The position numbers and the translations under genes were made by a program. Of a DNA stretch of 64,000 bases, positions 27,358-27,446 are shown one piece after another; position 1 is the first letter of the stretch, and each line of letters starts with the position of its first letter. The DNA is from Azospirillum sp. (lineage in GTDB: Bacteria > Pseudomonadota > Alphaproteobacteria > Azospirillales > Azospirillaceae), in NCBI GenBank assembly GCA_027486405.1, contig JAIXPD010000014.1:83962-147961 (forward strand), read 5' to 3'. The notes under the pieces were generated by a model. It was not told the origin of the DNA. It was given only the letters and a program-made list of their open reading frames with translations, and did no database searches.

Positions 27358-27446
27358 CAATTCCCGCCATCCGGCGGGATGGACCTACTGCCCCGTTTGT
27401 CGAGACGGACGCCATGGGTTCTCCTCCGCAAACGCGGAGACTAACG
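27358..27446 (+). ncRNA. creA: Putative creA antitoxin guide RNA gene: psiR1 (27358-27385), psi-spacer (27386-27418), psiR2 (27419-27446)
   Basis: Two degenerate copies of the CRISPR repeat, start-to-start 61 bp (equal to array period). psiR1 stem CCCGCC-ATCC-GGCGGG + ATGGACC versus repeat CCCCAC-ATGC-GTGGGG + ATAGACC; psiR2 stem CTCCGC-AAAC-GCGGAG. All stem changes are compensated. Confidence 0.85.

Follow-up and report, generated by a model that had tools for sequence, protein, structure and literature searches.

Among systems with clustered regularly interspaced short palindromic repeats (CRISPR), CreTA modules have been described for types I-B (PMC8501985, PMC9458426) and I-F (PMC10097628), and CreR guides for types I-B, I-E and V-A (PMC13131331). 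In known CreA genes the Cas5-binding handle is kept in the first degenerate repeat, psiR1, and lost in the second, psiR2 (PMC9458426), and the CreT of an Acinetobacter I-F system, which kills the cell, requires a Shine-Dalgarno (SD) sequence and a start codon AUG held in the stem of a hairpin (PMC10097628). Here we describe a degenerate mini-array in the 529-bp interval (27341-27869) between the cas3 and cse1 genes of an Azospirillum sp. of the same genus as Azospirillum griseum, in a window of 64 kb (the whole stretch of DNA analyzed) within its 5.49-Mb genome. The window contains a complete type I-E locus, in the order array 1, cas1e, cas2e, cas3, the interval, cse1, cse2, cas7e, cas5e, cas6e and array 2; all eight cas genes and the 61-bp arrays of this type are thus present. 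Judging from its sequence, the mini-array is an element of the known CreA/CreR kind, namely degenerate repeats outside an array with recognition features for Cas6 (stems in both repeats) and Cas5 (a handle in psiR1).

The initial annotation of this DNA had proposed two degenerate CRISPR repeats set 61 bp apart, and the sequence bears this out, the spacing being that of both intact arrays. As had been claimed, psiR1 (CAATTCCCGCCATCCGGCGGGATGGACC) is identical to the consensus GTTTCCCCCACATGCGTGGGGATAGACC at 18/28 positions and psiR2 (TTCTCCTCCGCAAACGCGGAGACTAACG) at 16/28, each forms a stem of six Watson-Crick pairs closed by a 4-nt loop, in register, and psiR1 retains the 5' handle (ATGGACC). 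Two pairs in each stem have both of their bases replaced; psiR1 shows C-G to G-C and A-T to C-G, and psiR2 shows C-G to T-A and A-T to G-C. To this extent the annotated compensatory covariation stands; what is seen is compensatory change at two loci, as distinct from covariation in the alignment-based sense. When the 64 kb outside the arrays were scanned on either strand for repeat pairs at any spacing of 45-75 bp, psiR1/psiR2 was the sole in-register stem pair with a summed identity of at least 34/56, and nothing equal to it arose when the intergenic region was dinucleotide-shuffled 5000 times, so that random sequence does not perform equally well, as the annotation had allowed it might. As both stems are kept, and the handle is kept in psiR1 and lost in psiR2, we infer processing by Cas6e; the arithmetic given earlier for its product (27379-27439, 61 nt, 8+32+21) holds. 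The prediction of a Cas6e-processed, CRISPR RNA-like 61-nt RNA, likewise made in the annotation, is well supported by the psiR1 handle, the two stems, the adjacent I-E effector genes including that of Cas6e, and equivalent mini-arrays at the corresponding intergenic position of other I-E loci.

Stronger evidence than the compensatory stem changes comes from a match between guide and target that was absent from the earlier account, which went no further than processing and proposed no function. The I-E Cascade flips out its guide at every sixth base (PMC5965380), and both strands of the window were searched with the psi-spacer under this rule. The best seed match of the guide in the 64 kb lies on the minus strand at 27453-27439, directly downstream of the mini-array, and pairing collapses beyond position 15. 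This target is single-copy in the genome with two mismatches allowed, and 0/5000 shuffles yield a guide-target run of 15. It is flanked by the protospacer-adjacent motif (PAM) AAC. In type I-E the first base of a spacer derives from the last base of the PAM; of the 391 spacers in the arrays of the loci compared below, 326 begin with C and 52 with T (a total that counts three genomes twice, L046-L048 repeating L021-L023), and C is therefore predicted independently as the last PAM base. A seed of 5 bp suffices for binding by the I-E Cascade, and interference needs more than 18 bp (PMC5904413). The 13-bp PAM-proximal match falls short of the latter, and hence binding without destruction of the DNA is predicted. 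Since the PAM-flanked, seed-matched target lies at an adjacent promoter, the guide is likely to be a promoter-silencing one; such a partial match to a PAM-flanked site near a promoter of the cas locus, here a predicted one, is what marks CreA/CreR elements. On these features the element is a CreA/CreR-type guide, with which Cascade is predicted to repress the promoter without cutting, and we consider it highly probable that the guide acts through Cascade on this neighboring promoter.

The same arrangement recurs in other I-E loci. Relatives of cse1 were gathered from genomes and metagenomes, and their loci were scanned with a stem and an I-E handle required and no PAM assumed, the longest nearby seed match being taken with the sixth positions ignored. 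Mini-arrays were thus found in nine further loci, and two more with an ATAGCCC handle (L014 and L016) were added by hand check. In 12/12 loci (the window, L022, L011, L012, L013, L017, L018, L052, L056, L060, L014 and L016) the best nearby match is flanked by an AAC PAM and shows mismatches at both position 6 and position 12; these amount to about eleven independent cases, because L011 and L012 are closely related. Several scan hits with weaker handles and non-AAC flanks, which look like chance, are left uncounted. The ignored positions were not forced to mismatch, and if neutral about one in four should match by chance; mismatches at the flipped-out positions 6 and 12 may thus have been favored by selection, for instance by preventing recombination between guide and target. 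The target lies on the guide strand in five loci (L022, L013, L052, L056 and L060) and on the opposite strand in five. In three of the loci with a same-strand target (L052, L056 and L060) the order is reversed, with the AAC-flanked target and a presumed promoter upstream of the mini-array and all of them upstream of cse1; L056 further has an SD and a 21-codon open reading frame (ORF) between the target/promoter and the mini-array. No mini-array was recognized in the intervals of L023, L021 and L015. Among ten Azospirillaceae with Cse1, seven have a mini-array in the cas3-cse1 interval (G000, G071, G082, G078, G038, G044 and G027) and none was seen in that of the other three (G017, G057 and G016); the module is therefore patchy.

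A natural empty site is found in A. griseum, whose Cas3 and Cse1 are 92% and 94% identical to those of the window. Its cas3-cse1 gap spans only about 150 bp, homology ending near 27344 and resuming at 27806, and the module sequence was found nowhere else in the A. griseum genome. Hence, cse1 is expressible there without the promoter at 27465, and the module appears to have come or gone as a whole. Plasmids yielded no DNA homologue of the interval, and 84 genomes of the family gave short fragments only. No Rfam family reached its gathering score in 27200-27950, and the interval contains no tRNA or tmRNA.

Downstream of the predicted target promoter the sequence has features that a CreTA toxin RNA would be expected to show: an SD, an AUG hairpin, a mini-ORF and a putative terminator. 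TTGACA-17-TACATT is the only promoter-like hit in 27200-27950 at the threshold used; its -35 box at 27465 begins 8 bp past the PAM, and the PAM side of the target faces it. The cas3-cse1 interval is highly structured from about 27500 onward (z = -6.1 for the interval as a whole and z = -4.7 for 27500-27610), and the minimum-energy fold of 27500-27610 includes the AUG hairpin; in a shorter fragment this hairpin gives way to pairing of the SD with the CATCTC arm. An SD of at least 7 nt combined with an AUG in a stem of at least 6 bp occurs at a single plus-strand site in the 64 kb and in 1/5000 shuffles. Comparable layouts are present in L017 (an SD, ATGGA-ACC-TCCAT and the four-codon ORF M-E-P-P) and in L022 (an SD and a 14-codon ORF), in both of which a 12- to 14-bp hairpin precedes the SD and mini-ORF, and the AUG lies in or near a hairpin. 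The candidate toxins of the window (27560-27565), L022 and L017 also have in common the motif UGGUAC, located ahead of the SD in the apical loop of a hairpin, the hairpin in the window differing from that in the other two. This loop resembles the tRNA 3'-end-binding motif of T-box leaders, a resemblance that we offer as a lead only.

Taken together, we favor a type I-E addiction module of the CreTA type in the cas3-cse1 interval as the probable reading. The guide transcript would probably be the 3' end of the cas1-cas2-cas3 message, as no separate promoter was found, and Cas6e would cut both degenerate hairpins to release the 61-nt CreA. Loaded into Cascade, this guide would pair at 13 of the 15 PAM-proximal positions of the AAC-flanked site, a match seen in the sequence; the site with its PAM ends 8 bp ahead of the -35 box. 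Bound Cascade would occlude the promoter and block RNA polymerase, with no attack by Cas3, since pairing ends at position 15, short of the cleavage requirement. The silenced promoter would otherwise give the candidate RNA toxin CreT, a structured transcript of about 300 nt ending at the terminator, in which a strong SD is followed by a six-codon ORF whose AUG lies in a hairpin stem; this RNA might interfere with translation. Were Cascade lost or inhibited by an anti-CRISPR, CreT RNA would be made and the cell arrested, so that the CRISPR system would be kept in the population. Going further, and with somewhat more doubt than conviction, we suggest that an I-E CreTA family in Azospirillaceae and other Proteobacteria could represent a new class of toxin RNAs jamming translation initiation, with a 5' hairpin of 12 bp or longer, a strong SD, an AUG hairpin and an ORF of 4-14 codons, and that its guides would have targets in which the mismatches at positions 6 and 12, where bases are flipped out, are maintained.

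Several points weigh against the CreTA interpretation. Its promoter and terminator are consensus predictions, and no homologue of the candidate creT region could be detected among the 84 family genomes, so that the conservation of the toxin is judged by layout alone. In the folded primary transcript the guide would base-pair with its target, which could hinder processing, and in E. coli Cascade occludes a promoter less well when there are PAM-distal mismatches (PMC5904413). The codon CGA (7.1/1000) is uncommon, but it is not the rarest arginine codon, AGA standing at 0.8/1000, and hence the rare-tRNA mechanism of the archaeal CreT is not indicated. Moreover, the mini-arrays of several relatives seem to be directed at the cse1 promoter and not at a toxin. 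With regard to candidate mechanisms, a toxin acting through rare AGA or AUA codons was rejected, as the mini-ORF has CGA AAC in their place and lacks two consecutive very rare codons.

The last of the points against a toxin leads to the reading of the mini-array as a CreR, a Cascade-guiding RNA whose target promoter serves cse1-cse2-cas7-cas5-cas6e in a feedback loop limiting Cascade, with the structured RNA as a long leader. Autorepression is reported for type I-E (PMC13131331), and the 27465 promoter is oriented toward cse1. L018 has its mini-array immediately before cse1, with the target at the presumed promoter, and L011, L012 and L013 lack an RNA with SD and AUG hairpin between target and cse1. 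In the window, however, a predicted terminator separates the promoter from cse1, the strong SD, AUG hairpin and mini-ORF are unexpected in a leader, and the A. griseum cse1 exists without this promoter. We thus regard the CreR reading of the window as less likely than CreTA, although it is the chief rival, even as L011, L012 and L013 may themselves be CreR-type regulators of cse1; CreTA and CreR uses of one guide architecture both seem to occur in this group. Action of the mini-ORF through its product, as a tiny-peptide toxin or as the leader peptide of a transcription attenuator, is favored by the translatable frame and the predicted downstream terminator. Nevertheless, the mini-ORFs of L017, L022 and the window have no common sequence, and the terminator lies about 180 nt past the ORF, far for classical attenuation, and we hold this to be highly improbable.

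The low identity of the repeats to the consensus, 57-64%, would also suit an old array that has decayed and no longer has a function. Decay is difficult to reconcile with paired changes that keep both stems, the exact spacing, a handle kept only where Cas5 needs one, and a guide-target-PAM pattern recurring in 12 loci, and we accordingly give it very little credence. Even less plausible is that the guide-target match is an RNA hairpin, formed within a single transcript as part of an attenuator or terminator. In the window the two are indeed in inverted orientation and the transcript folds so, yet in L022, L013, L052, L056 and L060 the target is on the guide strand, where such a hairpin is impossible, which refutes it as a general explanation, and the AAC PAM and period-6 mismatches would be left unexplained. 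The CreTA module thus remains our preferred interpretation, and its features are collected with those of the surrounding cas locus in Table 1.

Table 1. Features of the mini-array, the candidate toxin RNA and the type I-E locus (window positions)
Feature	Positions	Strand	Basis or remark
psiR1	27358..27385	+	degenerate I-E repeat retaining the 5' handle ATGGACC(T); stem of 6 bp, loop of 4 nt
psiS, 32-nt guide ACTGCCCCGTTTGTCGAGACGGACGCCATGGG	27387..27418	+	sequence comparison
psiR2	27419..27446	+	degenerate I-E repeat; stem retained, handle lost (ACTAACG)
Predicted 61-nt mature guide RNA (8+32+21), as released by Cas6e	27379..27439	+	sequence arithmetic; inferred
Guide target ACTGC(A)CCGTT(A)GTC	27439..27453	-	13/15 PAM-proximal positions paired; mismatches at 6 and 12
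PAM 5'-AAC-3' of target	27454..27456	-	last base C agrees with array spacers
Block without counterpart in A. griseum cas3-cse1 interval	27345..27805	+	approximate borders
Predicted promoter TTGACA-17-TACATT	27465..27493	+	consensus match only
Candidate creT RNA	27500..27805	+	predicted promoter to predicted terminator; inferred
12-bp hairpin, 5' side of candidate creT	27515..27544	+	folding
SD GGAGGTG, 4 nt ahead of AUG	27572..27578	+	sequence
Hairpin GAGATG-CGAAA-CATCTC, start codon in stem	27580..27596	+	folding
Mini-ORF ATG CGA AAC ATC TCC CGG TGA	27583..27603	+	sequence
Predicted intrinsic terminator ahead of cse1	27779..27807	+	consensus match only
CRISPR array 1	22976..23308	-	array detection
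cas1e	23400..24263	+	TIGR03638
cas2e	24282..24608	+	TIGR01873
cas3	24431..27340	+	longest ORF; true start possibly further downstream
cse1 (cas8e)	27870..29474	+	TIGR02547 65.9 bits, just under cut-off 70.05; operon position
cse2	29471..30031	+	profile match
cas7e	30028..31278	+	profile match
cas5e	31275..32081	+	profile match
cas6e	32009..32833	+	longest ORF; PF08798 passed; TIGR01907 just under NCBIfam cut-off
CRISPR array 2	33033..33609	+	array detection

Within the intact arrays, the last repeat of array 2 (33582-33609) is a variant, CACACCCG, that equals the consensus repeat of A. griseum, which suggests that it is an older version of the repeat. The repeat of array 1 at its 22976 edge (22976-23003) is also a variant, with GGCCTATC in place of GGTCTATC. 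Elsewhere in the window, 61096-61231 is a tandem array with a 12/24-bp unit (TAATAGCTCGGATAGTAACTTGGA), in five 24-bp copies with 96% matches.

The locus offers a sharply defined I-E case with a natural empty-site relative, A. griseum. A blind test that looks for a degenerate stem and handle and for a match broken at every sixth base, with the PAM then read off, already gave a dozen loci, and many more might be found in this way. Such hidden mini-arrays may account for some CRISPR systems being hard to lose and for their reaction to anti-CRISPR proteins; if the CreTA reading is true, a toxic small RNA would punish the loss of CRISPR.

Of the known systems, the I-F CreTA of Acinetobacter sp. 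WCHA45 resembles the window element in its position between cas3 and the first effector gene (csy1 there, cse1 here), its psiR1/psiR2 hairpins, a partial PAM-flanked target mismatched at position 6, the SD and stem-embedded AUG of the toxin RNA or, here, of its candidate counterpart, and relatives without the interval; it differs in its type and PAM (I-F and CC, against I-E and AAC) and in a toxin divergent from the guide gene, the candidate toxin RNA of the window being co-directional (PMC10097628). The I-B CreTA modules of Halobacterium hubeiense and Haloarcula hispanica share the degenerate flanking repeats with a handle in psiR1 that is lost in psiR2, and, in the toxin RNA or its candidate counterpart, a mini-ORF (six codons in H. 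hubeiense) and a stem-loop, whereas their toxins sequester rare AGA or AUA tRNAs and their repeats have no conserved hairpin; the window has the codons CGA-AAC-ATC-TCC-CGG and repeats with stems (PMC8501985, PMC9458426). CreR similarly has a mini-array guide partially matching a promoter inside the cas locus, type I-E included, but represses a cas promoter, whereas the window has a predicted terminator and a toxin-like RNA before cse1 (PMC13131331, PMC12737573). The Racr viral RNA anti-CRISPRs are also repeat-like RNAs outside an array; unlike the two-repeat, self-targeting element in the host cas locus described here, they are viral decoys of solitary repeats (PMC10651486). Against this background, what may be new is a type I-E CreTA with its own toxin-RNA layout, a shared AAC PAM and regular mismatches at positions 6 and 12.
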